A stretch of 39,384 nucleotides of DNA from a virus: positions 1 to 39,384 of the IMG/VR virus record IMGVR_UViG_3300025168_016986; one strand, given 5' to 3'. This document shows, one piece after another, positions 1-20,885 of the stretch. Numbering within the stretch: the first letter of the stretch is position 1; every line of letters begins with the position of its first letter. Made by a program: the position numbers and the translations under genes. Under the pieces are notes generated by a model. The model was given only the letters and a program-made list of their open reading frames with translations. It was not told the DNA's origin and ran no database searches.

Positions 1-879
1 TCCGAACACATCCATTGCCACTGATTGTGGGTCGGCTATGACATTAGTCTCGCCTTCTTTTCCGCTTCCGAACTGCAAATAAACACCACCCCGTTCGCGC
101 ACTACTACAAATTTGCGAGCTACTAGAATTGGCTTCATTATCGAAGGAACATTATCGTTCTTAAAGTTAGAGTTAGGGACTTCCCTGTACACCATATCTT
201 GAGATAAGTAATCGACTTCATAATATTCATTTCCTTCCGAGTCTACAACGGAAATTACCTCGTTAATACTTGGTGAGCCAAGCTTTATTCTCAAAAATCT
301 TTGAAAGTTGCCTATTTTCTTAGTAATACGGCCAAATCTACCGGAAACAACGTTGCCATAAGCTTTGATGGCGTAATATGTCGGCGAGCCAGTAGTACCA
401 TTCACTTGAGATGCAACGATGGGGTTTTTAGAATCACTAAAATCTATATTAGAAGTTAAAACAAAGTTGAGTCCGTTTTCAGATGTAAACCTAGTTCCCC
501 TCTTTAAAATAGGGATATAGTCTCGGTTAGGGCCCAGGCCAGCAGTTTCTGCCGGCACTTGTATGAATAACGCCACTTGGCCATATGTTGATGTCGGGCC
601 CGGTTCTTTATATCCCATCACTCTGCCGTGACGAGCGATATTGGTATAACTATATGCCGTGTCTAAAAATGACTCATTAACACTATAATCTAAATAAAAC
701 GATAACTGATCGCCCACATACGCTACGGCGTCCAGCATAAGAGAGCCGAAAGATGCTTCGCTGAAATCTCTAAAATTGTCAGGATAATATCGCGCAGCTA
801 GCTGTAACAGATCATTTCGTATAGAACGATAATCTCTGTGAGTGTAGTCAATAGGTGGGGTAAATTTCTCGTCTGGCAT
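1..879 (-). CDS. gp6: T4 gp6-like baseplate wedge protein (C-terminus beyond window)
   Basis: This 293-codon open frame starts at ATG 877-879, with the ribosome binding site GAGGA just upstream, and runs off the window without a stop. Residues about 33-60 (YPDNFRDFSEASFG, then LMLDAVAYVGDQLSFYLD) are the typical start of the T4 gp6 / baseplate J-like wedge family. In T4, gp6 dimers form the ring of baseplate wedges around the hub and take part in the conformational change on host contact. The gene directly upstream is gp25, which is also its structural neighbour in the wedge. Family assignment is from recognition of the N-terminal motif; about half of a normal gp6 is missing because of the window edge. 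Confidence 0.85.
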   Translation of the reverse strand, partial: MPDEKFTPPIDYTHRDYRSIRNDLLQLAARYYPDNFRDFSEASFGSLMLDAVAYVGDQLSFYLDYSVNESFLDTAYSYTNIARHGRVMGYKEPGPTSTYGQVALFIQVPAETAGLGPNRDYIPILKRGTRFTSENGLNFVLTSNIDFSDSKNPIVASQVNGTTGSPTYYAIKAYGNVVSGRFGRITKKIGNFQRFLRIKLGSPSINEVISVVDSEGNEYYEVDYLSQDMVYREVPNSNFKNDNVPSIMKPILVARKFVVVRERGGVYLQFGSGKEGETNVIADPQSVAMDVFG

Positions 880-893
880 AAAATATCCTCATT

Positions 894-1259
894 TTAAATA
901 GTAACGTTTAGCAAATCATTAACTCCAAGACCGGGTATAAAATAGCCAATTTGAATTTTTAAAATAGCCGAATCAGGTTCTGCTTGAAACCTAACCCCTT
1001 TAATATCGATAATAGGAAGATAGATTTTCACTTGAGAGCGTAATTTTTCTTCTATCTCTACTTGAACTCCTTCAGAATAATTTTCAAATAATACTGCACT
1101 GACTCCTACACCAAAGTTTGGTTCCATGACGCGTTCTCCGGGATTAGTAAGAACCAGCATTTTTAAATTTTGTCTTACCATGCCCTTTATGGTTTTGATC
1201 ATGGTAAAACCATCAGCTGAATTTTTAGTAATAGGTAGTTTGACGCCGATAGAGGCCAT
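894..1259 (-). CDS. gp25: gp25-like baseplate wedge protein (GPW/gp25 family)
   Basis: A complete 121-residue protein, the usual size for the family. The segment NPGERVMEPNFGVGV at about residues 39-53 is the family signature; this fold is shared by T4 gp25, phage P2 gpW and type VI secretion TssE. In T4, gp25 joins the wedge to the sheath and starts sheath polymerisation. It lies 33 bases downstream of the very large virion gene and 14 bases upstream of gp6, the expected order for baseplate wedge genes. The residual uncertainty is small. Confidence 0.9.
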   Translation of the reverse strand: MASIGVKLPITKNSADGFTMIKTIKGMVRQNLKMLVLTNPGERVMEPNFGVGVSAVLFENYSEGVQVEIEEKLRSQVKIYLPIIDIKGVRFQAEPDSAILKIQIGYFIPGLGVNDLLNVTI

Positions 1260-1292: not shown

Positions 1293-4200
1293 TCATTTTT
1301 CGCACAAATTGCCTTTAGCATCAAAAGGATTTCCAGTAATTCTGCTTCTGCTCCACTTTGGAATCTGTCGTTTTCCGCTTTTGGGTTTTATTCTTGATAG
1401 CATATTTCGCTTAACCATACTGAAGGGATTAGTGTCGTCTAGCGCTCGACTAATGTCGAAAGAGCGCGAGTTGTAGTAGTTTTTAAATATTCGTTTCATT
1501 TTACTACGACTAATTCTTAATAATTCTTGATCCCATTCGTCCCATCGAGTAACAAACAAGTTGGGCCCTGCTGCGACACTACGAATTATAGCCGATTCCC
1601 AACCAGGAACCGAATCGTAAGTGACCTCTGTATCGCTAGCGCTGACTGTGACGCCGGGCGTTTCAACACTATTGAATGGAACTGTTACTTGTCCAATAGA
1701 TAGTAAAAATCCCATATCATTATATAAAGCAGTCATGGCAACAGCTTTACGTGATGAGGAAATATAGCGAGACATTATTTGAAACTCTAAAGTTTCTGTC
1801 AGCTTTTTGAGGAGGCAAAGTAATATTTTACTATCTCCCTCAACGGGGGCGAACTCATCAATAGTTGTATCTAGTGCATCGATCTCTACATGAGCGATTT
1901 CAGCTTTAGTGATAGAGCCATCTTCTTCCATGTGTGCTATTGAAAAAGAAACTCCATATCTAACTCCCAGGTTACCTTTTAAGCCTACTACGATGTCATC
2001 TTCTGGCTCTAGTACTTCAGAAGTTGCATCCGACATGAAGACAAATTCCAAGTTGCCCGGATATACATCAGAAATATTTAAAGTTCCCTGATTGCTTCTC
2101 AAAATATCCAATGCTTCAGAGTTAGTAAATCTTAAATTGTCAATACTAATATATTTTTCAACAACAAAGGGTTTGTCTCCAATGCTTTCGGGGATGTAAC
2201 CTATTTCTTCTACATCTCCTATCTCAACAATTACTTTATTGGCATATAAGGTCAGCATATCGTGAGGCAGATTAGTGTGGTAGGGCCCTGACATATATTG
2301 TGTCGCGCCTTGATCTGTTATATGTACGTGAAAATACCCTACATAATCAGTCCCATCCGGGGAGGAGAACTGCCCTCCTGGGGAATATAGATCTTCTCCA
2401 GATGTTGGTATATCCTCTACTACTGTTTCTACAATCTCTTTATCCAATGAAAGATCAATGCCGCCATTTGAAAGATTGGTTAAAACAAAATAATCCATAT
2501 TAGTGTATTCGGGAGACATGTTCAGTTCTTTTAGGTTTTCAATAAAAATACTTCCAATCTCATTTAGCTCAAGTTTCAGCATTTCTCCTAGTACTAGTTT
2601 GGCATCCTCTTCTGTTCCCTTAATCGCTTCATAATTTTGTTCCTCTCGATATCTTTTGAGATTTATAGCGCGAGTAGGATCAGTAGGGTCTGATTTTGCT
2701 AATAAATATTGCTCTTTAGTGGGATACTCATAAGCCTCTTGCATATCATTAATTCTGATAATCGCCCTTTGTATTTCAGCAGAGGGCTGTGCGATGGTCT
2801 CATCGTCTACTATTCGACTATATGTTTGCACAACTTGTTCTAAAAAAGCATACCAAAACTCTTCATCTTTAAAAGGATTTAAAAACTCGAAGACGCCGGC
2901 TTGGGCATCTTTAAAGTCTTTTTCCATCTGCTCGACAATAAACTGTGGATATATAGAGCTACACACTTTATTGAAATCAGGTGCGAAGGTACTGAACGTG
3001 GCCAAACTTTTAATAATATGGACGCTTCCATATATTCTACAAGCTGCCTTTATTAAGCCCTGAATCCCTGCTTTTGCGGAGCGCTCAAGAATACGAGCAT
3101 ATGGCAACTCAACAATGCAATCGTCATTTTGTTGTAAGCGCTCATCTTCAGGAATAGAGTCATACGATGCTGCTATCTCATCTTCGATCTGCTTGAGATT
3201 AATAAAATCTGTTTTGCTTGGTGAGCAAGGGCTCATTTCCGGAAACAAAACATCTATTAAGCCGAGCCATCCTTCATTTTTAAGAGGTTTTATATATATT
3301 TTTGGACGAGTATAAGTTTTTCCATAAGTCGAAGGATCCAAATAATAAACTCTAACGTTTTCAGGCGTTGCTGGGCTATTAGCATATTCATTTATATATT
3401 GGTCGTAACTTATTCCCAATACAGCATCCTCATTGGTTAGCTTTTCACCATTTATAGTAGCCTTACTATATAGCGTACCGCCTGGACTATCAGTTTGGCC
3501 GGGCGCAACAACGTATTGGGCCAACTCTTTGGTAAGGTTATCATATTTTGCCCCATATTGCCAAGCAATATCGTTATTTGCAACTGCCTGATTTATGGTT
3601 TTGAATACTTTATTCAGCATGCTATCGTACATGCTTTTGGTCTCATCTTTTGATATATTAGAGCCGGCTTGTGTTAAAATCTCATGCAGCAAGATAACTT
3701 GCGGTTGAACATCTTGTTTAGTTAAAAAGCTATTCGTAAAGTTAGGGTATTTATCGAAGTTCAAAGTACTAAATGTATTATCAATAGCCAAAAATTCATA
3801 TGCTCTATCGGCAATCACATCATCTGTTCCGGTGACTGTCTTAAACAGATCAACCACACTTAATTCAGCATCATCAGGATCAACCACCATGGCAGCCGAA
3901 GGGATCTCTACCGCACTTTGATTCAAAAGCGTCGTTATGTTTATGCGTGCGTTGTCGCTATAAAGATTTGTAACTCCAGAGGATGAATCTAAAGAATCGT
4001 GAGTATGACTAGCAATCCCATCCATATATGAAGCGGAGGCGGCTTGAACAACTCCGTCCACAATCGTGTGACTGTGACCTAAAGTTATTAAGGTGCGGCC
4101 GTTGCCTGATGAATCTATAGAATATTGATGTATATGATCTTCTTCAAGTTCACTTTTAGCAGCAAACCCAGAATCCCACGTAATATCATTAGAGGTTATG

Positions 4201-7200
4201 GTAGGTGCAGATGACGGAGAGAACTCTGACAAGAAAAGATCGATGTCAAACCCTTCTGAATAGGTAGATCCCACCTCTTCTACAAGGCCTTTATTGTTGT
4301 CTTGAAATCTGAAAGATATATCGGGAGTCTTTTTTCTTGGCGATTTTATAAAGCTCACTTCTTTTTTAGTAACATCAACCACAGTTTGAACGTTATATCC
4401 AAAATCAGGGAGGTCTATTAGTTTAACACCTCTGGGAGATAAGTTTAACGAATCAAAAGATCTGACAATTGGGCGCGCCGGCTGATATTCATTATTAGAT
4501 AGGAAGTCTATTTCTAAATTCTCCATGGAGGTTCGCAACCATTCAGCCACATATTCGGGAAATTGTCCACGCTGGTTGACGGCCCATGTTTTAGCAAAGT
4601 CTACGTAATCCCTATTAAAAAATGATTTACGATAGTGAGCAGTTAATGGGGTGCCCATTGTATCAGATAATATCATGTTTAGCATGCCCCACCTTTTTTC
4701 ATTGGGCCCGTTACCAAGCATATCTTCCGAATAAGCTACCATTATTTGTTGCAAACTTCCGTTTAGTGCGTTGTGGGCGGCTGCTTGTTGCTCCGGAGAC
4801 TCAAACGGAATAAGACCATTATCACATCCGGGGTCTGATACGAGCGGCGGAAGAGAGGGGGTGGTGTCATTTTGCAACAAATCCGCTAGTGTTCCAAGAT
4901 CGTCTGCTATTCCGTCCTGATAGCTTCGGCACATTTCAGCTGATTGTTCAGGGGTTGCTCGGCCTCTCATTAGCTGACTTCTAAAAGCGCAAAAGTTATC
5001 AATATCCTCTGGGGATGCACACAACGACGGGTTGGCTGGGAGCATTTCTTCTTCATCCAAAGAATCTGCAAAATCTCTCATGTCTTTTTTCAGGCTTTCC
5101 GGAAACAAGTTGCCCATATTACCAAAGAAGGTTTTCATCGAATCTGCATCTGGAAGACCTAGCTCAAACTGTGGATATTCATTAGTTTTAATATCGTTAA
5201 CTAGGTTGGCTGCTTCATCTGGCATCTTTCCTAAAAACGACTCCATTAGTTCAGCACGGGTTAGAACACTCGATACGTCTCCCATAAAATTAATGACGTC
5301 TTCTTGGTTTTTGAGGGCGGCGCCGCCTACACCTAGCTTTTGGAACATATCAACAACTGTATCATTAACAGAGCCCGTTTCACCTTCACAAATAGCGTCC
5401 CGTATTGTATCCACAATAGCTGTGCGATCATTGGCAGACAAGGCGTTCATAGCAACTGCGCCGGCGGAGGCGCCTAGCTTGCATATTGAGCCCCCTAAAA
5501 TATCGCACACTTTTACAACCAAAGACATCAACATAGAGATAAGCGCCTCTTGAATCGCCAGTTTAAAGGCGAATTGGGCGATACCCCCTAAATCTTTCCA
5601 TTCAGGAATCCATCCAAATGGATTTTGTAGTTTAGGAAGTGTAAGCTCTTCTCCATTTTTGCACCATGGTAGCTCAATATCTCGTATAAAATCCATGTAG
5701 TTGGGCTCAAATGCTGGTGCGGTAGGGCAGTTCATGTAAGTTAAAACTTGTGCGATCAGTGGGGCGCCTGGAAACTTGTTCAGAGAATCTAACACTACTA
5801 GTGAATCTTCTTTGAAGACCTCTAAAAGTGACTGAATGTATACCTGCATCACTATTGAGCTGTTTACGGCAGAGGGTGAGCCTTTTTTTGAATCAAATGA
5901 TTGCCCTAGCGTTCTTCGATCTCCGGGAAGCTCACCCTGCTCTTCTGGGGTGGGCCTGGGCCTTTGTTCTCCGAGCTTAAAGGGCTCTGTCACCAACTGC
6001 TTTGCGGTGGCGCCACTTATCATTTTTTGATCTGCCTCACCAGACCATGGCTGAACATTTTCTATAGCGGTTCGGTCTGCTCCTTGATCAATGAGGGCGT
6101 TCAACTCTTCGTTAGAGCCGCCATCCTTAAAAACGTTGCCGCTTTCTATTTTATAAGCTACTAGTTGTTGAATCTCTGCTTGTTTATCGGCAGGCAAACC
6201 TACAAAAAGTTCTCCAAAGTTTTCTACGGACATGTTTTGGAGAGCTGCGTTCAATACTTTTGCCATGGCTTGTTCAAAAGTTAAACCAGCCATTAAACAC
6301 TTCATCGCATCAAGCATGAATTCATTAAGACCACATTTTTTTAATCTATCAAACGCTTGTGGCCATAGCTCCATTCCGGCGCCGACATTTCGATTACCGA
6401 ACTTGGCACCCACAAACTTAAAACACAACTCCGTAAAAACACCATCATTATCCTCAATCTCTCCATACGCCTGCTCTTTTGCTATTGTAAGCAAATCTTC
6501 AAAGGATTTTTGACCACTGGGGTCTGGCACTTGACCGAACTCAATCTGGCCTTGATTATACTCGCCGACGTTCGCTTTACAATTCCCGTCTCGAAACAAA
6601 TATGCAAATGAATCGGCAATACTGAAAGTATCGGATAATAAATCTTCACCCAGTTGAACTCCTTTCTTGGCCAAAGCCTCGCCTACACAGCTTTTAGGAG
6701 TAGCACTTCGAGCTGAAGTTGGGAGGGGCCAGCTAAAGGTCTCTATTACATTTGGGTATGTATGTTTTGTTAAAAATTCTAGCCAAGGAACAGGTTCGCG
6801 GCTCATCAAATCTTTTTCCATTTCTTTTGCGCGGGCGATATACGCCATGGCAGTCTGATTTTTCATTTCTGGTTTATTGTTGAGTGTCTTTAACTTTTTG
6901 GGCCCATAAACAAAAGGCTTGCCTCCACATCCGTGAGTGAGCGCTGCAATTTTTGTGAGCTTATATTTTGGGGAAAATGTTAAAGTTATGCTTGTGATCC
7001 TATTTTCCGCGAGGCCCACCAATGGGCCGCCGCGCAACAGCAGGCCTTTGCCATTTAGAAACTCTTCTATGTGCTCTTGGATTTTCTGTAGAGTTCCAAA
7101 GCCAGAAAACCCATTATCTCCATAATCTTCCAAGTTAAAAACGCGCTCGTCTCCGGAGAATATAAGATTACCTTTCTCAATACCCCGAAAAACGTTTAAA

Positions 7201-7802
7201 TAGCGAGAATATAGATGAAGGGATTTCCTAATCTTTAAAATGGTGGGGTTAAAATCCTCGCCATTAAAATTCACTGTGGAGATCGATGGACTGCTACTTA
7301 ATGTATCTTCTTCGTCTACCTCTTCTTGTTCGTCTTCTAGATCGCTAAAATCTTCACTATCGACGGAGTAGAGAAGTCTAACATAAGAAATAGCTCGCAT
7401 AGATAAGTCATATTCTTCATTTGTTATAAGCTGTTTTAGCTTATTCTTATTTTCAGTAGATTCTGATTTTTTATACGCTAATATTAAAGCTTCGACTGCC
7501 TCATCTACGTGATCAGAAAATAAAGTATTGGTGTATTCTTCAGCTTCTGCTTGGCTTGCACCTGCATGAGGCAATAACGAAGTATGTTTTGTGCTTATGG
7601 AAATCTGATACGTGCATGTTTTCTCGTTTAACCAAGGCTCTCCGGAGACATGTGCGGACGATCTCCAGTCAGGAGCTACGTATGTTAAGTTAGGAACACA
7701 TTTAAGACAAGTATTTACCGGTGCAGTATACACCAGCTCGTCGCACGTATCTAAAATTTTATTATAGTTAGAATCTTGATATTGTAAATATTTAGAACTC
7801 AT
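1293..7802 (-). CDS. Giant (2169 aa) virion protein of the baseplate/tail module, function unknown
   Basis: I do not recognise the family. The start is ATG at 7802, preceded by AAGGAG at good spacing. The protein is acidic and mostly non-repetitive. A stretch at about residues 755-790 (QFAFKLAIQEALISMLMSLV and onwards) is hydrophobic and could be a membrane or core helix. Two regions are rich in histidine pairs: about 1220-1270 (HIHQYS, GHSHTI, SHTHDS) and about 1825-1850 (HVHITD, PYHTNLPHD). HxH clusters in phage tail fibres and spikes often hold metal ions inside trimeric stems. Position between the hub/spike genes and gp25 argues for a baseplate or tail component, perhaps a huge wedge, tail-tip or ejected protein. 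The role is inferred from position only. Confidence 0.8.
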   Translation of the reverse strand: MSSKYLQYQDSNYNKILDTCDELVYTAPVNTCLKCVPNLTYVAPDWRSSAHVSGEPWLNEKTCTYQISISTKHTSLLPHAGASQAEAEEYTNTLFSDHVDEAVEALILAYKKSESTENKNKLKQLITNEEYDLSMRAISYVRLLYSVDSEDFSDLEDEQEEVDEEDTLSSSPSISTVNFNGEDFNPTILKIRKSLHLYSRYLNVFRGIEKGNLIFSGDERVFNLEDYGDNGFSGFGTLQKIQEHIEEFLNGKGLLLRGGPLVGLAENRITSITLTFSPKYKLTKIAALTHGCGGKPFVYGPKKLKTLNNKPEMKNQTAMAYIARAKEMEKDLMSREPVPWLEFLTKHTYPNVIETFSWPLPTSARSATPKSCVGEALAKKGVQLGEDLLSDTFSIADSFAYLFRDGNCKANVGEYNQGQIEFGQVPDPSGQKSFEDLLTIAKEQAYGEIEDNDGVFTELCFKFVGAKFGNRNVGAGMELWPQAFDRLKKCGLNEFMLDAMKCLMAGLTFEQAMAKVLNAALQNMSVENFGELFVGLPADKQAEIQQLVAYKIESGNVFKDGGSNEELNALIDQGADRTAIENVQPWSGEADQKMISGATAKQLVTEPFKLGEQRPRPTPEEQGELPGDRRTLGQSFDSKKGSPSAVNSSIVMQVYIQSLLEVFKEDSLVVLDSLNKFPGAPLIAQVLTYMNCPTAPAFEPNYMDFIRDIELPWCKNGEELTLPKLQNPFGWIPEWKDLGGIAQFAFKLAIQEALISMLMSLVVKVCDILGGSICKLGASAGAVAMNALSANDRTAIVDTIRDAICEGETGSVNDTVVDMFQKLGVGGAALKNQEDVINFMGDVSSVLTRAELMESFLGKMPDEAANLVNDIKTNEYPQFELGLPDADSMKTFFGNMGNLFPESLKKDMRDFADSLDEEEMLPANPSLCASPEDIDNFCAFRSQLMRGRATPEQSAEMCRSYQDGIADDLGTLADLLQNDTTPSLPPLVSDPGCDNGLIPFESPEQQAAAHNALNGSLQQIMVAYSEDMLGNGPNEKRWGMLNMILSDTMGTPLTAHYRKSFFNRDYVDFAKTWAVNQRGQFPEYVAEWLRTSMENLEIDFLSNNEYQPARPIVRSFDSLNLSPRGVKLIDLPDFGYNVQTVVDVTKKEVSFIKSPRKKTPDISFRFQDNNKGLVEEVGSTYSEGFDIDLFLSEFSPSSAPTITSNDITWDSGFAAKSELEEDHIHQYSIDSSGNGRTLITLGHSHTIVDGVVQAASASYMDGIASHTHDSLDSSSGVTNLYSDNARINITTLLNQSAVEIPSAAMVVDPDDAELSVVDLFKTVTGTDDVIADRAYEFLAIDNTFSTLNFDKYPNFTNSFLTKQDVQPQVILLHEILTQAGSNISKDETKSMYDSMLNKVFKTINQAVANNDIAWQYGAKYDNLTKELAQYVVAPGQTDSPGGTLYSKATINGEKLTNEDAVLGISYDQYINEYANSPATPENVRVYYLDPSTYGKTYTRPKIYIKPLKNEGWLGLIDVLFPEMSPCSPSKTDFINLKQIEDEIAASYDSIPEDERLQQNDDCIVELPYARILERSAKAGIQGLIKAACRIYGSVHIIKSLATFSTFAPDFNKVCSSIYPQFIVEQMEKDFKDAQAGVFEFLNPFKDEEFWYAFLEQVVQTYSRIVDDETIAQPSAEIQRAIIRINDMQEAYEYPTKEQYLLAKSDPTDPTRAINLKRYREEQNYEAIKGTEEDAKLVLGEMLKLELNEIGSIFIENLKELNMSPEYTNMDYFVLTNLSNGGIDLSLDKEIVETVVEDIPTSGEDLYSPGGQFSSPDGTDYVGYFHVHITDQGATQYMSGPYHTNLPHDMLTLYANKVIVEIGDVEEIGYIPESIGDKPFVVEKYISIDNLRFTNSEALDILRSNQGTLNISDVYPGNLEFVFMSDATSEVLEPEDDIVVGLKGNLGVRYGVSFSIAHMEEDGSITKAEIAHVEIDALDTTIDEFAPVEGDSKILLCLLKKLTETLEFQIMSRYISSSRKAVAMTALYNDMGFLLSIGQVTVPFNSVETPGVTVSASDTEVTYDSVPGWESAIIRSVAAGPNLFVTRWDEWDQELLRISRSKMKRIFKNYYNSRSFDISRALDDTNPFSMVKRNMLSRIKPKSGKRQIPKWSRSRITGNPFDAKGNLCEK

Positions 7803-7811
7803 CTTGCTCCT

Positions 7812-8831
7812 TTATGTCGAAAATACGTTTCGACTTGCAATATATTTAGAACCCATATAAGTGCAGTAATTAAGCTCCCAAAGACTTTTGTTAATTCTTA
7901 AGGCCCTTAAGCTTGTCTGCATGGAGCTAATATATTCTTGAACTGTGACCGATGATGCGCTGGCGCGCCATGGTTCAAGCATGGTAATTCCAGTAGCCGT
8001 CGCGAGGGCTGCCTGCGTATATGACATTCTTTCAATTGCGCCTATAAGTTGGCCCATTATATCTGATAGCTCTTTAATGCAGTCGCGCGTATTTTCCCCT
8101 CTTGCTATTCCCTGAAGCATTTTAACGGGCTGATCTTTTGTGAGCTTATTTCTTAGAAAGCCTAGTTTATGCTCTCCGGACTGATTGCCGGCATTTAGTT
8201 CAATAGGGGGCGCCACTTGAATTCTTTTTCCACCAGATGTTAACTCTCCATCTTTTCCAAAACCTTTAAAAGCAAAAGATCGGCCAGTGGTTATTTTAAC
8301 GCCAGTTCTGCCTATGATCCTTACCGCATCAGCCTTCATTCCAATAGCAGAAACTCCTGTTTTCATGCCAATATGACCAGCAGCTAATCCAAAATGTTTG
8401 TCAATATCCGTCTTTTCACTTATATATATGCGCGCAGCATCTGCTCCAAAGTTGGGGTCGACCCAGGAGTCGGGCGCGGGTCCTTGGCCTGTTCGGGCGC
8501 TGGCCATTGGACCGGCAACAATATCAATTGTGCGGCAGCGTTGGGCGCCTGGGCCGCCATAGCCAGATGCTAAATTGCTAGGGCGATCGTGACCAAACTT
8601 AATCGATGGAGATCCCGCTTCGCGAGGGCCTATTCGCATCTCTCCTTTAGCCTCGATCATATTTATCTTGGTTTCGGCCGGGTTACTTTGTAAAACTCCT
8701 GCATCATCAGGGATAATATTAACCGCTGTGGCTCCACGTCTATCAATTTTCTGTTGGAAATTGGTAAGAAGCTTTTGTCTTCTCGGGGAGAGGCGGCCAA
8801 TATCAAAAAGTGCTTTGTTATTCTTAGACAT
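7812..8831 (-). CDS. Baseplate-module structural protein, family not recognised
   Basis: A 339-residue protein starting at ATG 8831 that overlaps the stop of the upstream gene by one base (TAATG). It has a basic, Gln-rich N-terminus, a Gly/Pro/Ala-rich middle (GYGGPGAQRC, GPMASARTGQGPAPDSW), then a segment of short beta-prone repeats around residues 140-200 (ARIYISEKTDID, AVRIIGRTGVKITTGRS) that resembles the stacked strands of phage spike or fibre domains. The C-terminal part (about 240-339) is likely helical. I see no enzyme motif. Its place between the putative hub/spike protein and the giant virion protein makes a virion role likely. A spike or tip part is my inference. Confidence 0.75.
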   Translation of the reverse strand: MSKNNKALFDIGRLSPRRQKLLTNFQQKIDRRGATAVNIIPDDAGVLQSNPAETKINMIEAKGEMRIGPREAGSPSIKFGHDRPSNLASGYGGPGAQRCRTIDIVAGPMASARTGQGPAPDSWVDPNFGADAARIYISEKTDIDKHFGLAAGHIGMKTGVSAIGMKADAVRIIGRTGVKITTGRSFAFKGFGKDGELTSGGKRIQVAPPIELNAGNQSGEHKLGFLRNKLTKDQPVKMLQGIARGENTRDCIKELSDIMGQLIGAIERMSYTQAALATATGITMLEPWRASASSVTVQEYISSMQTSLRALRINKSLWELNYCTYMGSKYIASRNVFST

Positions 8832-10546
8832 TATTCTTCCACCGGCTCGAACGGCTCACCTTGACCGGGCGATTCAAAAACAAAATCACCTTGAGTGTAC
8901 CGGATCCACTCTGGGTCGACGTCGTACCAACCGGGGGCATTATTGGCCTCCAAGAAGGAGTCCCAGTCGCTAAATGTCCTGCCAGCAGAGTCACTATATG
9001 TCCAACCCATTTCAAACCATACGCTGCCGCCCGTGCCGACGAGGCCGGGGTGTGCAGGGACTTGAGTTGGTGCAGGATTTTCGGCAGCTGCGGCGGTGTC
9101 GGCGGCAGCAGCAGTCGTGGCTTCTTCTTCTGCTGTGGCGGATCCGACAGTCGCAAGTAGGCTTCCTCTCATAATTTCCGAGCCCGGGCGTGGTGTAACT
9201 TCTACGTGCACTGCACCATTAGCAGGTTCCATTTTCCACCCATCGGGCGCTACAAAGCCAGACGTGACGAACTCTTCTTGAAGTGTGCCGTTGGCTAACA
9301 AGGCGGGGTAGCCCTCGGGGCCAAGATCCGTTTTAAATCGTGAGAAGCCGGCGGAAATAGTAGAGATTGGGGCGCCTGAAACATCAAAGGCAATTTTTGT
9401 TCCCGAAGATCCTTCGCATCCGGGACCCACGCAATGATTGCTTCGGCGAGGATCAGCGATCGCTTTATTATATGGTGAGCTTGTCAGAATACCGCGAATG
9501 CGGTTAACTTCTGCAATAGGAAAACGCGTAACATCAGAGCGGGGGGCATCACCGGCGGGGGTAGGAACCGGCGGCAGGGTGCCCCCGGGATCCGGGTCGC
9601 GGGCCATTCTTATAATCATATTTGAGCCATACCCAACAGTTCTTCCTCTCGACGTCACGCGCGTACCTACAGGAAGAAAACGTGATGCAGCTGCAAAGAT
9701 ACGATCAATACGAGCGTTCCTTTCGGTTGATCTTGAATCTATTTGAGCGAGTTGGGAGGCTCCCAACTCGGAAGAATATGTGCTCATATCTGTGCTTCCA
9801 TCCCAGTGATCGAATATCGTCAGCAGGGTGTCACACTCTTTTTCTTGAAGTTCGTTTTCTATCTCTCGCATAGTAATGTCTGTGATTTCTTCAAAATAAC
9901 AATATTGCAAGTTATATCCCAGGTCGCTTTTATCAAGTATAACTTGCACTCTGTCCCCAACACGAGGCACAGGACCATCATATCCTGTTTTAGATATAAA
10001 TTGCGTATGACATTGAATCAACTGCAAGGCTAATGTTGGGTGCGTATGAATTGTTATGTTACACGGATCTTCCAGAAGAGCATGTGGAGATGGAAATACA
10101 TCATCATCTAGCATCTCAATTCTTCCATAAAACGAATAAGACCCATTATCGACAGCAGGAGGGTTGAGTTCTATAGCAGGAGGTGTAACACGGGCTGCCT
10201 GACGTCGGGAAGCTATTTGTGAAGTGATTACATCTATTTGCGCGCGGTATGTTATTTCTTCCAAATCAGTTCCGAAAGCCATAGCGGTAGCTAGATTCGC
10301 TTGTGCTAGCGCGAGGCTTGATTCTAAATCGGATGTGTCGGTTGCGGATTCGGATCCGGGAGAAAACGGCGGAATAGTGACCGAAATCGTAGTGAGGGTA
10401 GCAGGAGTCAGTACACGAACCTCAAACATAACCTTGTTCGTGGAGTGATCGTTACGTAAAGTTTGTCTTAATGTTTCAGCAGTTGCGGCCATTGCCACCG
10501 TTGCTGTGCCCTGTTCTCCCGGGGTAGTGTAATTTGTTATGGCCAC
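8831..10546 (-). CDS. Putative baseplate hub/spike protein with an M15-peptidase-like motif
   Basis: A 571-residue protein with GTG start at 10546, preceded by AGGAGA. Residues about 150-250 (THPTLALQLIQCHTQF, PRVGDRVQVILDKSDLGYN) resemble the small beta-barrel part of phage hub/spike proteins. A second region holds SNH at about 369-371, AFD at about 386-388 and VHVEV with H447 and E449. These could be the zinc ligands of a D-Ala-D-Ala (M15) peptidase, whose pattern is SxHxxGxAxD then HxE, but the H-to-D spacing here is 17 instead of 7 residues. If right, this protein would locally digest peptidoglycan during infection, a job done by gp5 lysozyme in T4. An Ala/Glu/Thr-rich linker follows (about 460-485), then a Trp-rich C-terminus. 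Function is tentative. Confidence 0.7.
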   Translation of the reverse strand: MAITNYTTPGEQGTATVAMAATAETLRQTLRNDHSTNKVMFEVRVLTPATLTTISVTIPPFSPGSESATDTSDLESSLALAQANLATAMAFGTDLEEITYRAQIDVITSQIASRRQAARVTPPAIELNPPAVDNGSYSFYGRIEMLDDDVFPSPHALLEDPCNITIHTHPTLALQLIQCHTQFISKTGYDGPVPRVGDRVQVILDKSDLGYNLQYCYFEEITDITMREIENELQEKECDTLLTIFDHWDGSTDMSTYSSELGASQLAQIDSRSTERNARIDRIFAAASRFLPVGTRVTSRGRTVGYGSNMIIRMARDPDPGGTLPPVPTPAGDAPRSDVTRFPIAEVNRIRGILTSSPYNKAIADPRRSNHCVGPGCEGSSGTKIAFDVSGAPISTISAGFSRFKTDLGPEGYPALLANGTLQEEFVTSGFVAPDGWKMEPANGAVHVEVTPRPGSEIMRGSLLATVGSATAEEEATTAAAADTAAAAENPAPTQVPAHPGLVGTGGSVWFEMGWTYSDSAGRTFSDWDSFLEANNAPGWYDVDPEWIRYTQGDFVFESPGQGEPFEPVEE

Positions 10547-10559
10547 AAGGCTCTCCTGC

Positions 10560-10847
10560 TTAGTTGTCCTGAATCATATCAAATAAACTATTCTTATCTT
10601 GTTCAGAGAGCACGGATTCCTCCTTGCTCCCTTTTAGTCTCAAAGCGATGATTTTTACAAGCTGTTCGTTCGATCTCTGGAGGGTTTCAATGTGTTTCGC
10701 AGCAACGGGACTTAAATATTTGTTTTGAGTAGCGTCAGTAGCAATTTGATTAGCTATTTCGTTCAGGAATTCTCTTGATAATTTTCGATCATTACGTACG
10801 TTATCAAGGGCTTCGTTAATCAATGATTCCAATTTAACACTACTCAT
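10560..10847 (-). CDS. Small hypothetical protein coupled to gp55
   Basis: A 95-residue protein. I take ATG 10847 as start because it overlaps the gp55 stop in the ATGA arrangement typical of translational coupling; a GTG six codons further upstream would lie inside gp55 and lacks better support. The product is helical and charged (for example NEIANQIATDATQ and ALRLKGSKEES), with no cysteines or membrane segment. I do not recognise it. Sitting directly behind the late sigma factor and before the hub gene, it could be a small regulatory or assembly protein, but nothing in the sequence shows which. Confidence 0.7.
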   Translation of the reverse strand: MSSVKLESLINEALDNVRNDRKLSREFLNEIANQIATDATQNKYLSPVAAKHIETLQRSNEQLVKIIALRLKGSKEESVLSEQDKNSLFDMIQDN

Positions 10848-11533
10848 AGTTGTCCGTTTTCCCACTCCCCTTTAAAGAGAAAGTACTTTTTTCTAAACTT
10901 TTTGAGAGAATTTACGATCTGTTTTGTATTCAGGCCCGTAATCTCTCTCAAGTATAAATAAATAGCTTTTTTATTAAAAATTTCAATATCATCTTTAGAT
11001 TCGAATAAAATCATAATTGCCTGGTACACCTTTAGATCATTTTCCTTCATCGAAGAGGTGTCCCAAGAACGAAGTTCTTGGTAAAAATGCTTCCAAAATT
11101 CATTTTCTTCGCGTTCTGTCAAATATGAATCATTAGTCGAAAGATATTCTTCCTCATAAGATTTTGAAATATTTTCATAATCCACTTCACGTCTGTTTCT
11201 TTTTTGTTGTCTTTTTACTTTGTGAATAAACCAGTTTTTTGTGATTACACTAAAATATGAAAACGCTTTCGACCCTTTTGATGGGTCGTATTTGTCTAAA
11301 ATAGTCATTAGCCATATTTTACATTCATCTCTGAGAGAATCACAGTTTGGTAAGTTTGTAAATTTATAAGTAAAAACAATCTTATCTACCATCTCATTGA
11401 ATGCTGGTTGGATATACTGAACATATAACTCTGTTCTTATTCTGATACAATCAGTATTGCTGTATTTTACTATAGCATCTTCATGCACCTGGGTAAAATA
11501 ATAGTTCTTTTTTCGTTTGCTAGTTCGTGGCAA
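10844..11533 (-). CDS. gp55: T4 gp55-like sigma factor for late transcription
   Basis: A 229-residue protein, somewhat longer than T4 gp55 (185). Residues about 60-120 match a minimal sigma-70 region 2: ECKIWLMTILDKYDPSKGSK, then an aromatic stretch AFSYFSVITKNWF and a basic segment KVKRQQKRNRREV. In T4, gp55 binds host RNA polymerase with the sliding clamp and gp33 and recognises the late -10 element TATAAATA. The start is TTG at 11533, chosen because AGGAG lies six bases before it and no better ATG exists; it overlaps the upstream gene by 14 bases. Its presence implies a T4-type late programme, although I found no convincing late promoter in the gaps of this window. Confidence 0.85.
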   Translation of the reverse strand: MPRTSKRKKNYYFTQVHEDAIVKYSNTDCIRIRTELYVQYIQPAFNEMVDKIVFTYKFTNLPNCDSLRDECKIWLMTILDKYDPSKGSKAFSYFSVITKNWFIHKVKRQQKRNRREVDYENISKSYEEEYLSTNDSYLTEREENEFWKHFYQELRSWDTSSMKENDLKVYQAIMILFESKDDIEIFNKKAIYLYLREITGLNTKQIVNSLKKFRKKYFLFKGEWENGQL

Positions 11534-12348: not shown

Positions 12349-13203
12349 TTATACTCCAAAAATTTGTTTTATGCATTGTTTTACATCTTTTTTTGCAAGC
12401 CATCCTAGATCTTTAAGCGGCTCAATATCGGCAACCGAGACTTTGACATCTCCTTTCCTTTCTTTATTATAAACCCATTCGTTCTTTTTTGACAACGAAA
12501 TAAGATTTTTAATTTCATTTAAACTAGTTGATTTGCCCGCACCTACATCATAATGTTCGCCTTTAAAGTTTTCTGGGTGAAGCATACAGAACACATTGCA
12601 GTCTATGATGTCTGATACGTGTATGAAATCTCTTGACTGATCGCCGTCACCGTTTATAATAAAAGGCCTTTTATTTCGCATCGCATGATTCCATGCAGAA
12701 ATAACAGTAGAATATGCACCACCATATTGTTGATCTTTAGAGAAAACGTTAAAATACCGTAAGGCCACAGTATCTATATCGTATAACTCGGCATAAACCT
12801 TACATTCAATTTCTGACATTCTTTTGTGAGCGCCGTAAGGATTACACGGAGTGCCATCGTTTCCATATATGGCAGCAGAACTAGAGAATATTACTCGATT
12901 AGCATTCACCATCTTGGCAAACTCTAATACCTGGGACGTTCCAAAGACATTGTGAGATAACGAGGTTGACGGATTGTCAACGCTCCACTGAACACTAGGC
13001 TTTGCAGCGCAATGAAAGATAAACTCTGGTTTAAATTGTTTCCAAATGCTGTTCGATTTTAAAAACTTTTCACTTCTTATATCACCCATATATTGTGTGC
13101 ATAAAAGATCAATGCCCATTGTTTCGTGACCATCTTCACTCAAGCGTTTTAATAGTTTAGAGCCAATATAACCTTTATGTCCAGTAACTAAACATCTAGC
13201 CAT
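12349..13203 (-). CDS. NAD-dependent sugar epimerase/dehydratase (extended SDR)
   Basis: A 284-residue extended short-chain dehydrogenase of the UDP-glucose 4-epimerase-like group. It shows the nucleotide-binding TGHKGYIG near the N-terminus and the catalytic YGAHK (YxxxK) with the serines FSSSA before it. It would act on a nucleoside-diphosphate sugar (4-epimerisation, dehydration or reduction). The start ATG 13203 has GAGGA five bases before it; a TTG one codon earlier is less likely. It overlaps the SIS-HAD gene by eight bases. It is the last gene of the glycan cluster in transcription order. Substrate cannot be told from sequence. Confidence 0.88.
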   Translation of the reverse strand: MARCLVTGHKGYIGSKLLKRLSEDGHETMGIDLLCTQYMGDIRSEKFLKSNSIWKQFKPEFIFHCAAKPSVQWSVDNPSTSLSHNVFGTSQVLEFAKMVNANRVIFSSSAAIYGNDGTPCNPYGAHKRMSEIECKVYAELYDIDTVALRYFNVFSKDQQYGGAYSTVISAWNHAMRNKRPFIINGDGDQSRDFIHVSDIIDCNVFCMLHPENFKGEHYDVGAGKSTSLNEIKNLISLSKKNEWVYNKERKGDVKVSVADIEPLKDLGWLAKKDVKQCIKQIFGV

Positions 13204-14170
13204 CAACTTCCTCTATCGCTTTAAATGTAGAATCCCAATCTGTAAATCTAATTGCCTTATCATCAATATAAAATCGTGCACGTGGCTTTTCAGCCGTTAC
13301 CTTGCTGACATATTGTGACATGTCGTGCTTTTTGAGCCACTCCCAAACCAATTCGGCACCGGTCTTACCATTTACTAAACCTCTGTCTGGCTTTGCCTTA
13401 CATGTATAAACAATAATCGTATACTTTTCAGCTAAACTCTTAAGAGCTTCGGGCGCTCCATCAACCGGTTCGTCATATATTGTTCCGTCGTAATAACCCT
13501 TTGAACACTTGTGAATAACCTTGTCAAAGTCAACTCCAATGTTTATTTGTTCATCTGGGTAACTGTGTTCTCTGATCTTGCCACCCTTCCAATTCAACTT
13601 TCTTAGCTCATCGGGAGAGTTCTGGCCAATCGGAGGACACACATTACCAGATCCGTGAGTAAGTTGATAAGTTAATAATAGTGTCAATACTTCAGCAGTG
13701 TGATAATAATCCGCACCTAGAACAACTTTAGTTAAATCAGGAATCTCTACGGGAAGATCTTTAGAGGTGATTATAGCAATTTGCATTCCGTTATCACTAG
13801 CCCATTGTAAGGCTTTTATAATATCTACCGAAGTACCGGAAGAAGAAATACCCAAAACTAAAGACTTTCGCATCTGTTCTTTGTTTTTAGAAATACACCT
13901 GCTGGAAAGCCATGACACCATCCACTGTTCAAAACCCAGATCATTAATTAAAGAAGTCGCAACAACTCCCGATCCAGGACACATTGCATTTTTAGTACCA
14001 TTTGATAGGCGCGTCATATCGACGGCGGCATGGTCAGCAACGGCAAGATTGCCTCCGTGGCCTAAAACAAAAATGTCGTCACAATCATTAAACTTTTGTT
14101 GTAGCTGCTCCCACTCGTCAGTGTGAACCACTTGTACAAATCTATCTCCAATGTTCTCAAAATTAAGCAT
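13196..14170 (-). CDS. Fusion of SIS sugar isomerase (GmhA-like) and HAD phosphatase-like domain
   Basis: A 324-residue two-domain protein. Residues 1 to about 185 are a sugar isomerase (SIS) domain like phosphoheptose isomerase, with GHGGN (37-41) and SSSGTS (109-114) as the phosphosugar loops. Residues about 205-324 are HAD-like: VDFDKVIH (D214, D216), YTCKAKPDRG and FYIDDKAIRF give nucleophile, lysine and final acidic pair. In the ADP- or GDP-heptose pathway, isomerase (GmhA) and phosphatase (GmhB) are separate enzymes; here both activities may sit on one chain. The usual G after the second aspartate is K, so phosphatase activity is not assured. It follows the aldolase gene directly. Confidence 0.8.
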   Translation of the reverse strand: MLNFENIGDRFVQVVHTDEWEQLQQKFNDCDDIFVLGHGGNLAVADHAAVDMTRLSNGTKNAMCPGSGVVATSLINDLGFEQWMVSWLSSRCISKNKEQMRKSLVLGISSSGTSVDIIKALQWASDNGMQIAIITSKDLPVEIPDLTKVVLGADYYHTAEVLTLLLTYQLTHGSGNVCPPIGQNSPDELRKLNWKGGKIREHSYPDEQINIGVDFDKVIHKCSKGYYDGTIYDEPVDGAPEALKSLAEKYTIIVYTCKAKPDRGLVNGKTGAELVWEWLKKHDMSQYVSKVTAEKPRARFYIDDKAIRFTDWDSTFKAIEEVDG

Positions 14171-14845
14171 TTATTGTAACTCCCTATATCCTTCTAATAA
14201 AATTGTAGTATCCATTCCTACGGCAATTATACCATAATCCTTATATTTTTTAATTTGTTTGTCAACATCAGTAGGTATATGAACCGCCATCTGTCGAATA
14301 GGTATAATATTCTTGATCTTTTCTAGTGCTCTCGCATATGCTTTGCACTCAAAATCGCCAGCTTTTCCTAAACTAGCAGATAGATCATAAGGACCAATCA
14401 TATAATAGTCAAATCCTTTTTGATGAATCTTATCTAAATTTTGTACACCCTTCTTTGTTTCGATCTGGGCAATAATAATAGATGGGCGGTTTACTAGTTT
14501 TCCATATCCCCATTGATTTTCCCTCACCAATCCAAGGCCGCGGCGACCGTGGTACTTTGGAAAGCTACACAGTTCTTGTATTTGTTGTGCTTGTGCTGCC
14601 GTTTCTACGGTTGAAAAAATCAAACCCGTTATACCGGCGTCTAAACAAATTCTAATGAGTGTCTTGTTGATTTCTGTAAGTCTAACGAAGCATTTCTTAC
14701 CAGATGCGGTGATTACTTGGATACACGTAAAAAGTGTTTCGTTGTTGTAGCAGCCATGTTCGGTGTCTAATACCACTCCATCCATGCCGCGGCACAGCAT
14801 TTCGGAGACAAGAGGGGATGGAATTTGTTGCCATGCTAATCTCAT
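14171..14845 (-). CDS. HpcH/HpaI family class II aldolase
   Basis: A 224-residue protein with the conserved blocks of the metal-dependent HpcH/HpaI aldolases: DTEHG (27-31), GRRG (100-103), QIET (127-130) and GPYDLSASLG (151-160). The family catalyses reversible aldol condensation of pyruvate (or oxaloacetate) with aldehydes, giving 2-keto-3-deoxy acids. It is shorter than typical members (about 250), lacking some N-terminal residues. It overlaps the GDPD-like gene by four bases. Within a sugar cluster it may build or cleave a keto-deoxy sugar acid, possibly the donor precursor activated by the cytidylyltransferase; that link is inference. Confidence 0.85.
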   Translation of the reverse strand: MRLAWQQIPSPLVSEMLCRGMDGVVLDTEHGCYNNETLFTCIQVITASGKKCFVRLTEINKTLIRICLDAGITGLIFSTVETAAQAQQIQELCSFPKYHGRRGLGLVRENQWGYGKLVNRPSIIIAQIETKKGVQNLDKIHQKGFDYYMIGPYDLSASLGKAGDFECKAYARALEKIKNIIPIRQMAVHIPTDVDKQIKKYKDYGIIAVGMDTTILLEGYRELQ

Positions 14846-15297
14846 TTATATTTTCCTATAAAGTCTGAACAAATACCAGCACATGATTGAAGATCTTGAA
14901 CGCTGTATATATCAGGTACCATCTCTGGCATTACACAGATTGAATCGGGAGTTAAAATAGCCCCCGGATAAGTCCAGATATACCCGTTTGTAGTTAAGGT
15001 GTATCTGTCAGTTTGGTGCCAAAAAGCTCGCAAGCCAACAGCCTGTTGTGAAAAAGAATGTAGCGCTCGAATATCTTTAGCGTGGATCCACAAGTTACCG
15101 GCACGTTCAAAAATCCATTCAGGTGTAATTTCAAACTGCGGCTCATCGTGACCTAAAGATAATGGGGTCGTAAACGACCCCCATATGTCTACTTCTACAT
15201 CATAACCCAAACTGATTGCTTTGTCAATATAGTCAGGATGATTTTCTTTTTCGGGTCTTGGGCCTTCGGTGTTTCCGCGATGTGCTATTAAAATCAT
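14842..15297 (-). CDS. Short glycerophosphodiester phosphodiesterase-like protein
   Basis: A 151-residue protein starting MILIAHRGNTEGP. The HRGN, a downstream EN, DVEVDIW and LGHDEP follow the order of catalytic His, Glu, Asp and His in the GDPD TIM-barrel family. It is well short of the usual 240 or so residues, so the barrel would be incomplete or compact. Such mini GDPD-like proteins recur in bacterial glycan clusters, where they may remove or transfer glycerophosphate; the true substrate is unknown. It is coupled to the aldolase by a four-base overlap. Confidence 0.7.
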   Translation of the reverse strand: MILIAHRGNTEGPRPEKENHPDYIDKAISLGYDVEVDIWGSFTTPLSLGHDEPQFEITPEWIFERAGNLWIHAKDIRALHSFSQQAVGLRAFWHQTDRYTLTTNGYIWTYPGAILTPDSICVMPEMVPDIYSVQDLQSCAGICSDFIGKYK

Positions 15298-15308
15298 TTT
15301 AAAACTCT

Positions 15309-16103
15309 CTATAAAATATTTGGCGAGTATCCAAATGTTTCAAAATCTTTCCTATAAAACTTATAAACAGCAATAGCTGTTTGTGGATTTTTATAATACT
15401 CTTGGTAAGGTGCTCTATTTTGGCTTTTATTAAGATGAGGAAGTTTTGGCGGATTATCGAGGCCTATAAAATCTGTCATTAAAGATTTAAACCCTTCGTT
15501 AATCTCTTCAAACTTATAAATCTGGTGTTGTTCCGGCGGTATAGAGGGGTGCAATACCCACATAAACTGAGGACACCACATATTTGGAAAATTTTGTTGA
15601 GTGCCCGATGGATCTTTGCCATCTAGATAGCTTATATTATATCTTCCATCGTTTGTGGCATGCAGAGTGACCCTATTGGATAGTTTTTGGACAAACAAAT
15701 CAAAATCGCTATATAAATCGGAAGCTTTTATCTCAGAATCTGTTTTTTCTCTTGAAATAGCATAATGATAAGACGAAACAAGTCTATCATATGGATTTCT
15801 GACAAAATACACTAACGGCAATTTCATAGATAAATCATAAGAATTTCCGTGACCGTCAGTGCCTTGGTCTATGATTAAATTGATAGAACGATGATTTCCG
15901 CTATCTCCAGCTAAAAAATCAGCCCCTTCTCCACCTAACATACGATGAATAGAGACCCCTCCTGTTTTGGGAATATGAATATAGAGAAAGTCTTTTTTAA
16001 TGGGTATAACTTTATAATGATGCGAACCTGTGGTGTTTAATGTATTCATGATCGCTGTCCCGTTATGGCTATACATGTGATATTTTTGTTTAATAATGCT
16101 CAT
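15309..16103 (-). CDS. Sulfotransferase family protein
   Basis: A 264-residue protein with the two PAPS-binding signatures of carbohydrate sulfotransferases: HIPKTGGVS (43-51, the 5'-phosphosulfate loop) and RNPYDRLVSSYHY (102-114, the 3'-phosphate site). Such enzymes move sulfate from PAPS to a sugar hydroxyl. PAPS would have to come from the host, since no PAPS synthesis gene is visible here. It overlaps the methyltransferase gene upstream by four bases. A sulfated glycan product would add negative charge to the host surface or the virion. The family is clear; the acceptor is unknown. Confidence 0.85.
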   Translation of the reverse strand: MSIIKQKYHMYSHNGTAIMNTLNTTGSHHYKVIPIKKDFLYIHIPKTGGVSIHRMLGGEGADFLAGDSGNHRSINLIIDQGTDGHGNSYDLSMKLPLVYFVRNPYDRLVSSYHYAISREKTDSEIKASDLYSDFDLFVQKLSNRVTLHATNDGRYNISYLDGKDPSGTQQNFPNMWCPQFMWVLHPSIPPEQHQIYKFEEINEGFKSLMTDFIGLDNPPKLPHLNKSQNRAPYQEYYKNPQTAIAVYKFYRKDFETFGYSPNIL

Positions 16104-16795
16104 TTCTTCACCACATACGCGCTAGGACAAATGTAGTTTAATGTTTTAAGCTCTACATCCTTATCAGCGAAGAATCTGTCGGCGCCGGCAGACTCGGACC
16201 ACTTGTGGAATGCGTACTCATCAAACACAACAATTCCACCTTTAACAACACGATCCCATAATGCGCGGAGCGTTTCGTATGTAGGCTCTTCTACATCCAA
16301 GTCAATGTAAAGCAAAGAGATTCTAAAACCAGGGCGTTCGGCAGCGTATTGTGCAGCTGTCTTTGTGATGTCACCGGGCACTAAATCAAACTCATGTTCT
16401 TCAAAGCCAGATTGGACGATGAAGTCTCTAAAAAAGTCTACTTGACCTTTGTCATGCTTATAGTTTCTTTTCTCAAACAACGTGCCCATAGCCTGCTTAT
16501 CGAGGCCAGAGAGACTCTCTACAAGCTTCTCTGAATCGAAGAAGTCAAATCCTACCACTTTCTTGCCGCTGTTGGGACATAAGAATCTTTTAAGCTTGAG
16601 AAATGTAAACATTCCTGTGCCTTTGAAAACTCCACACTCAACAATGTCGCCTGGCAGATGTTTAACGCTATCTACCAATAGTGTACGCGCCAAAAGCTTT
16701 CCAAACACCTTTGTGTCTGGACTAAGCATAAATCCATTAAAACAATCAAATAAGTGCTGGGTCGTGTTAACAATTTCTAATTCTTTGATTTCCAT
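16100..16795 (-). CDS. TylF-type SAM-dependent methyltransferase
   Basis: A 231-residue protein resembling the macrocin O-methyltransferase (TylF) group. It has the SAM-binding motif VECGVFKGTG (52-61) and the acidic motif YIDLDVEEPTYE, which in this family binds the metal next to the acceptor hydroxyl. TylF homologues methylate sugar hydroxyls on macrolides or surface glycans. The position beside sulfotransferase and sugar-nucleotide genes suggests a sugar acceptor here too. It follows the HAD-nucleotidyltransferase fusion with no gap. Confidence 0.85.
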   Translation of the reverse strand: MEIKELEIVNTTQHLFDCFNGFMLSPDTKVFGKLLARTLLVDSVKHLPGDIVECGVFKGTGMFTFLKLKRFLCPNSGKKVVGFDFFDSEKLVESLSGLDKQAMGTLFEKRNYKHDKGQVDFFRDFIVQSGFEEHEFDLVPGDITKTAAQYAAERPGFRISLLYIDLDVEEPTYETLRALWDRVVKGGIVVFDEYAFHKWSESAGADRFFADKDVELKTLNYICPSAYVVKK

Positions 16796-20473: not shown

Positions 20474-20885
20474 GCTCTACATCTGGGCGTGTAACAGCAT
20501 ATCTCACACCGGGAGAATCTCCTACACATGTGATTTTGTGCCAAACGCCACGAGGCACCACGATAATGTCATGCTTTTTTACTCGCTGGGTGCCCATGTC
20601 TTCAATCCACCACTCCCACTCTCCATCTAAAATAACCCAATTTTCATCAGCATCTGGGTGAAAATGTTTTCGGTTGCCCTCGCCAGGGTGCTGTTGGATA
20701 ACTACACCTCCGAACAGATCATTATAAGCTATTCGTACGGCCCACGAACCCATCCCTAAATCATCGCGAAGTTCTTGAAGATTTACAGTCGTACAGTTTT
20801 CGTATTTTACTAACTCTGAAACTGGTACTCCATCTTGCTCAAGAACCCTGATTAGATCACTATCTGATTTTGTTTTTATTCCCAT
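20454..20885 (-). CDS. Cupin-fold protein
   Basis: A 143-residue single-domain cupin. KHFHPDADENW (73-83) supplies the two His and the Glu of cupin motif 1, and GVWHKITC the motif 2 His. WEWWIED is unusually Trp-rich. Small cupins in surface sugar clusters can be isomerases, epimerases or sensors. Next to the SDR and the CMP-sugar synthetase, an isomerase or oxygenase-like step on a sugar acid is possible. The gene overlaps the two-domain glycosyltransferase by one base. Confidence 0.8.
   Translation of the reverse strand: MGIKTKSDSDLIRVLEQDGVPVSELVKYENCTTVNLQELRDDLGMGSWAVRIAYNDLFGGVVIQQHPGEGNRKHFHPDADENWVILDGEWEWWIEDMGTQRVKKHDIIVVPRGVWHKITCVGDSPGVRYAVTRPDVEHVYEDG

Follow-up and report, generated by a model that had tools for sequence, protein, structure and literature searches.

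A giant baseplate-cluster protein of a large phage group carries two exchangeable histidine cassettes, probably metal-binding, and a switching cysteine pair

What is a protein of 2169 residues doing immediately before gp25 in a phage baseplate cluster, and what are its paired histidines for? The question is raised by a virus record of 39,384 bases (IMG/VR IMGVR_UViG_3300025168_016986, the whole of which we call the window), whose end falls inside a gp6-type gene. In a first-pass annotation, the open reading frame (ORF) at 1293-7802, on the minus strand with an ATG start and named BIG here, had been described as a baseplate-module protein with two histidine-rich zones, resembling metal-binding stems of fibres and spikes and possibly combining several functions carried by separate T4 proteins. 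The 2169-residue ORF and all six listed histidine motifs are indeed present. We observe that the giant, unnamed in the family libraries searched, is a core component of the baseplate cluster in a large phage group, and that its two histidine zones are modules, A and B, whose distribution across sites and proteins makes them exchangeable cassettes. From their sequences, both modules are predicted to be probably metal-binding.

Relatives were gathered by gp25 and gp6 scans of viral contigs, the giant itself having been unsuccessful as a query. The gp25 scan gave 79 loci from 91 stretches and the gp6 scan 80 kept of 132, and blastp matches to the giant (E≤1e-3) comprised 108 ORFs in 160 loci, one being the window's own piece. 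An ORF of at least 1500 aa lies directly upstream of gp25 in 72 of the 73 loci with at least 6 kb upstream, a count that omits the gp25 loci with less than 6 kb upstream, including nine with small complete ORFs in this slot. The exception (L154) missed the distance rule and has a 3167-aa open-ended ORF in the slot. The slot ORF is directly linked by blast to the window protein in 47 of these 73 loci. When all 159 loci are considered, 89 have at least 1500 aa upstream; in 50 others the ORF is shorter and runs into the contig end (44 of them blast-linked), two have short complete blast-linked pieces, and nine have too little upstream DNA. The 58 unique full-length relatives measure 1565-2985 aa. 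With the window protein added, 53 of 59 are connected by chains of blast scores of at least 60 bits, and the family can be aligned end to end with a mean column identity of 32%.

The assignment to the baseplate cluster is based on this recurring place next to gp25 and gp6, both recognised by family matches, which bears out the earlier call of a baseplate-module protein, and on sheath and tube families found on the contigs of several relatives. At E≤1e-3, 7 of 12 giant-bearing records contain the sheath family PF04984 (above the curated cut-off in 3) and 5 contain the T4 gp19-type tube family (above the cut-off in 2). In one of the seven sheath records (G010, L143), the giant is unconnected to the main blast group. 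The sheath-matching frames in G001-G004 and G009-G011 are very long (930-1122 aa), presumably exceeding the length of the T4 sheath protein.

The window protein has no match in Pfam, NCBIfam or PHROG (the latter at E≤0.1), and none in INPHARED (50,697 phage records) at E≤0.01; two of its stretches have none there at E≤1. Three distant or module-bearing giant relatives and one module-A protein from outside the family gave no INPHARED match at E≤0.001, and PDB sequence searches with the window protein and with the family profile gave no match. A phrog_77 (SbcC-like) match (E 3.9e-5) in one of 18 aligned distant members was taken as chance coiled-coil likeness. Domain-wise structure prediction, the check suggested at the outset, gave a well-folded C half in AlphaFold2 (predicted local distance difference test, pLDDT, 80.9; predicted template modelling score, pTM, 0.80). 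This model strongly matches A0A516M7H3_2 in a viral structure library (E 2.2e-24, TM 0.49), an unnamed entry with no function. A tape-measure, ejection or tail-tip protein, merely encoded beside wedge genes, would suit the mostly helical N half of the model, the large size, the spread of lengths among unique full-length members (1565-2985 aa) and the lack of a fold match. Such a role is nevertheless very unlikely in our view, given the many strands in the C-terminal 560 residues, including module B, and the place immediately before gp25.

With 24 His (1.1%), the giant is not His-rich as a whole, and its densest 35-residue stretch holds four His, a value equalled or exceeded in 10% of shuffles. 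The spacing is what departs from chance, since the four H-x-H pairs compare with a shuffle mean of 0.25 and at least four were reached in 0 of 5000 shuffles. The first zone comprises HIHQYS (H1223/1225), GHSHTI (1243/1245) and SHTHDS (1266/1268), and the second HVHITD (1825/1827), PYHTN (H1842) and PHDM (H1847). We rejected the idea of two like zones, as they are different modules at different sites: the first is a loop insert and the second a variable element of the family. The clusters are of metal-site type, as had been proposed; no sequence or fold test tied them to fibre or spike stems.

Module A of the window stands in a variable loop. The region of residues 1186-1285 measures 20-76 aa and contains no HxH in the other 32 full-length rows, and an insert at this loop is aligned in only one of 87 C-half rows; L310, found later, has it at the same site. 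Eight of the 87 C-half rows have module A in place of module B, and module A lies close to the N-terminus in two distant relatives with weak profile matches (L267 and L332). The window insert agrees with the pattern HxHxYxxDxxGNG..HxH..HxH of 35 modules found elsewhere, whose selection had required the first part and three pairs. Taken alone, the insert scores 12.4 bits against the module model from other phages, the best of 2000 shuffles reaching 8.1. The D-x-x-G-N-G loop of module A resembles a calcium-binding loop, and a PDB search with module A returned calmodulin only (E 1.6), through this loop.

The same module occurs in many other phage proteins. A scan for its first part, with a pattern requiring the first HxH pair only, found at least 119 stretches. 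Among the matches listed, 117 ORFs carry the motif, of which 39 match the family profile (E≤1e-3), some through a short domain only, and 78 do not, some of which may be giants too distant to be recognised; L261, with a single HxH, is probably a chance match. Of the first 80 matches examined, 78 have at least three HxH, and the 74 bodies left after removal of module A fall into 18 clusters unconnected by blast. Exactly three pairs are present in 90 of the 95 distinct module A sequences among the matches listed, the others having one pair (three sequences), two (one) or four (one); eight module A sequences among these matches are cut short. At least three HxH arise in only 1.6% of shuffled module A tails. 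Module A, including the window insert, has HxH sets giving six His, as in the gp37-type iron site. At the tip of T4 gp37, we take the six His to be drawn from the three chains of the trimer.

Module B is an element of the family. Once the eight rows with module A in its place are excluded, 79 rows remain, of which 46 have all four His, 10 lack H1827 only, 9 have the first only, 3 have none and 11 show other combinations. The His columns co-occur strongly (Fisher down to 6e-6, 64 distinct modules). The model places both H1825 and H1827 in a strand at 1822-1828, after which comes another at 1834-1838, and the module B sequence has no match in the PDB. Outside the family, module B was found in 23 ORFs without a family match beyond the module, several being near copies. 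Two proteins of 272 aa (L228 and L236) have two module-B-like copies, the N-terminal one degenerate. Ten module-bearing non-family proteins (nine with B, one with A) have no Pfam match above the curated cut-off and no named PHROG, and a search of INPHARED with one sequence per module gave no match at E≤0.01. Since the cassettes occur at different sites and in other phage proteins, they would be add-on units and not the core function of the giant. They might instead be sensors of pH or of another trigger, a reading consistent with the loss of module B His in many relatives and with low pH having served as a trigger for the contractile injection system AlgoCIS (PMC13314943). Nevertheless, the three-pair rule of module A (90/95 among the matches listed) fits coordination better than titration, and we consider sensors quite unlikely.

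The cysteines, aligned in 59 N-half and 87 C-half rows, give a signal stronger than that of the histidines, and one that the first-pass annotation did not mention. In the window protein, 21 cysteines are Cys in at least 90% of the rows with a residue at that place, several of them in all. A hairpin in the N half shows a switch between two sets: both 938 and 958 are Cys in 40 of 59 rows, both 942 and 954 in 16, and both sets in none; two of the remaining rows have neither pair and one has a single Cys. The pairwise co-occurrence is strong (Fisher 3e-14 for 938/958 and 9e-15 for 942/954, 59 rows), the hairpin Cys state changes at least eight times on the tree, and for 942/954 six of six independent pairs agree (sign p 0.031). 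The model has helices at 931-944 and 951-977, with a pLDDT of 75-84 by blocks over 931-970, and the two Cys sets differ by four residues on each side of the hairpin. Because 938/958 and 942/954 swap and are never both present, we infer from the alignment and the model that the switching pairs are a single predicted intrachain disulfide staple, shifted by one helical turn. For a third pair, 860/890, both positions are Cys in 5 of 59 rows and in no row is only one of them Cys; we likewise read it as an intrachain disulfide. The gp25 protein and the gp6 part in the window have no Cys; therefore crosslinks to them are not suggested.

Conserved cysteines might also bind zinc or another metal, and the N-terminal C20-x11-C-x2-C-x27-C looks like a zinc finger, its four Cys being present together in most rows. 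In contrast, each of the switching pairs 938/958 and 942/954 offers two Cys only, at sites separated by one helical turn in a hairpin that the model predicts, and two ligands alone make no usual zinc site. We judge metal binding by the cysteines, in place of disulfides, unlikely.

Taken together, these data lead us to favour, with moderate confidence, a giant structural baseplate protein, held by disulfides and equipped with two metal-binding plug-ins, in a contractile-tailed, distantly T4-like clade. Its presence in virions, its identity and its role are what we infer from the above. Given its place in the operon, the giant would assemble in the cytoplasm with the gp25-gp6 wedge. Its mostly helical N half and mixed C half would be held rigid by intrachain disulfides, which may form once the particle leaves the reducing cytoplasm. 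Module B would be a beta-hairpin binding a metal through its H-x-H and two further His, and the three HxH pairs of module A would provide six His, enough for one octahedral ion in a single chain. On surface loops, the cassettes may act as stabilising or surface-contact add-ons. Iron as the metal of module A is a guess, zinc or nickel fitting equally well. A bolder version appears doubtful to us, in which a mobile single-chain metal cassette is shuffled among the giant and many other phage proteins, so that numerous redox-active iron sites would be exposed on the disulfide-stapled baseplate of one particle, as an iron-display system whose units can be swapped genetically.

In the longer loci, the recurring order is gp55-type sigma factor, 101-aa protein, variable hub-type protein, 339-aa protein, giant, gp25, gp6 (~598 aa), 510-aa protein and second giant, with some gaps and insertions. 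The closest cultured phage by gp6 is a Flavobacterium phage of Immutovirus (31% identity). In its cluster, a gp55-type gene (matched by the family profile of the window's sigma factor at E 3e-38) and a gene weakly matching the 101-aa protein (E 0.001) precede two genes unrecognised by the neighbour profiles; next come a gene of 139 aa, a 'baseplate assembly protein' similar in size to gp25, and gp6. LR756508 shows a similar order with a 224-aa gene in the slot, its gp25 being assigned by position only. The record of the Immutovirus relative comes from a Baltic Sea mesocosm, which is the sole basis for the word 'marine'. One 4.6-kb contig, assigned to a Flavobacteriales metagenome-assembled genome with a coverage of 0.12, encodes a relative of the giant (L246, 38% identity), a weak host hint that possibly reflects contamination. 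Flavobacteria as hosts are no more than a first guess.

Several observations weigh against the structural, disulfide-held protein with metal-binding plug-ins that we favour. Within the full protein, the insert scores only 6.3 bits against the module profile, and module A of the window is predicted to be disordered (pLDDT ~30), though almost no aligned rows are available there. All four module B His are kept in no more than 46 of 79 rows, and tree-aware tests of their joint loss go in the same direction as the column statistics without being significant (median p 0.06-0.5). For 938/958 alone, four of four independent pairs agree, which is too few (p 0.125). The total Cys content of the giant is ordinary (1.15%), compared with 2.1% for the structural proteins of phage Milano (PMC10811340). 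The N-half model is weak (pLDDT 63.7, pTM 0.52), Foldseek with the C half gave 0 of 286 PDB matches at E≤0.001, and VIA-align found no solved fold (best Z 4.5 for the C half and 4.2 for the N half, which was compared with the PDB by VIA-align only). The slot ORF has no direct blast link to the window protein in 26 of the 73 loci, 9 of the 159 gp25 loci have a complete unlinked slot ORF of 148-422 aa (L072-L077, L079, L080 and L152), and the slot is small in Immutovirus (139 aa) and LR756508 (224 aa). L072-L077, L079 and L080 are more distant gp25 loci, and their small slot ORFs are possible small counterparts.

The small slot genes of Immutovirus and LR756508 suggest that the giant is an expansion or replacement in a shared slot. 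Together with those of the nine gp25 loci, and with the size and place of the giant beside gp25 and gp6, they would agree with a fusion or expanded replacement of T4 gp7/gp8/gp10-type wedge proteins, without special metal chemistry and with the His in drifting surface loops. We find this somewhat unlikely. A comparison with T4 gp7 and gp53, which did not include gp8 or gp10, revealed no similarity, hhalign against a single T4 gp7 sequence giving a probability of 0.1% for both halves. The giant is one family aligned over its whole length at the identity given above, and the three-HxH modules are far from chance. A fusion of T4 wedge proteins was thus dropped as the default reading, and the combination of several T4 functions in one chain is unproven: gp25 and gp6 each have a gene of their own, another two genes resemble hub and spike, and no solved fold was matched. 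An expanded gp53 in this slot was also rejected, because, in the 3 of 12 relatives that have it, the short and weak gp53-type match (phrog_232, E 2e-4 to 7e-4) lies in a separate ORF, 113-117 aa long.

The features of the window are collected in Table 1. The profiles of the 339-aa and 571-aa neighbours gave no useful match in the PDB. A run of sugar genes adjoins the baseplate cluster (window 12349-29545), with two nucleotide-sugar epimerases, a phosphoheptose-isomerase-type protein, a HAD hydrolase, two sialyltransferase-type proteins and two glycosyltransferases. Downstream of gp6 and the ~510-aa gene, most long loci have a second giant ORF, which often measures 2000+ aa and in some loci 1200-1850 aa; an example is at 13328-20872 of L099, and the copy in L116 is LamG-like by eye.

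Table 1 Features of the window with their positions, strand and the basis of each assignment
Feature	Position	Strand	Basis
BIG, 2169-aa giant baseplate-cluster protein	1293..7802	-	ORF, blastp family and place before gp25
Module A, residues 1220-1270, HxHxYxxDxxGNG ... HxH ... HxH, three HxH pairs	3993..4145	-	Alignment and module profile
Variable loop, ~residues 1195-1281, holding module A in the window	3960..4220	-	pLDDT ~30 over the insert (AlphaFold2)
Module B, residues 1803-1862, YTxGGE..Y[VI]GYYHxH..YMxGExH..HDxL; H1825, H1827, H1842, H1847	2217..2396	-	Family alignment
N-terminal four-Cys cluster C20, C32, C35, C63	7614..7745	-	Cys in 54/54, 50/55, 55/55 and 53/55 rows with a residue there
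Helical hairpin, residues 931-977, with switching Cys pair (C938 and C958 in the window)	4872..5012	-	Alignment and model
gp25 baseplate wedge protein, next gene downstream of the giant	894..1259	-	Pfam PF04965, E 5.8e-12
N-terminal part of a gp6-type baseplate wedge protein, truncated at the record end	1..879	-	PHROG baseplate wedge subunit, E 4.8e-12
339-aa gene directly upstream of the giant, conserved	7812..8831	-	Putative spike type, from sequence look
571-aa gene, variable among relatives	8831..10546	-	Putative hub type, from sequence look
101-aa conserved small protein of the baseplate cluster	10560..10865	-	Conserved in the cluster
gp55-type late sigma factor heading the baseplate cluster	10844..11533	-	phrog_234, E 1.2e-4

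Giant virion proteins, HxH metal sites and disulfide-locked tails are each already known separately. In the literature, surveyed at the level of listings, we found no published description of the giant, of their combination, of a switching staple, or of an exchangeable single-chain cassette. As an evolutionary argument for disulfides in the virions of uncultured phages, the switching Cys pair is a clean one. Should the cassettes bind iron, they would offer a compact test, without a cultured phage, of the Ferrojan/Trojan Horse hypothesis that virions carry iron, as described in PMC11705849.

Among known systems, gp7 and gp53 belong with gp25 and gp6 in the T4 wedge; the giant is likewise encoded with gp25 and gp6 but shares no detected sequence similarity with gp7 or gp53. 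Among 36 module A sequences compared with Pfam, one touches YmaF (PF12788, E 0.011) and 35 do not, so that this family is a lead only; one touches C3_CUB2 (E 0.036). For Agrobacterium phage Milano, disulfides were proposed to lock the particle (PMC10811340), and the likeness consists of cysteines in tail and baseplate proteins, the giant having conserved, pairwise co-occurring cysteines in a tail-cluster protein, as expected for a locked tail of this type. In Milano, the network seen by cryo-electron microscopy links wedge, sheath and tube subunits in addition to intrachain bonds, whereas the giant has switching pairs in one chain, with bonds predicted from sequences. In AlgoCIS, the disulfide C268-C1000 of Alg11 is needed for firing according to PMC13314943, and a large baseplate part with a disulfide, predicted in the giant, is common to both. 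In AlgoCIS, domains III and IV of Alg11, itself the wedge protein, form the cage; no such cage of gp6-type domains was found here, as the gp6 homologue of the relatives is a separate ORF of ~598 aa, distinct from the giant. HxH pairs are said to coordinate iron in T4 gp37, and the fibre of Alteromonas phage R22Y has six predicted HxH pairs with a modelled octahedral site, as given in PMC11705849. Such pairs are common to both fibres and the giant. They presumably belong to a trimeric fibre in T4 gp37 and R22Y, whereas in the giant three pairs are found in one chain, within a cassette that occupies several sites.

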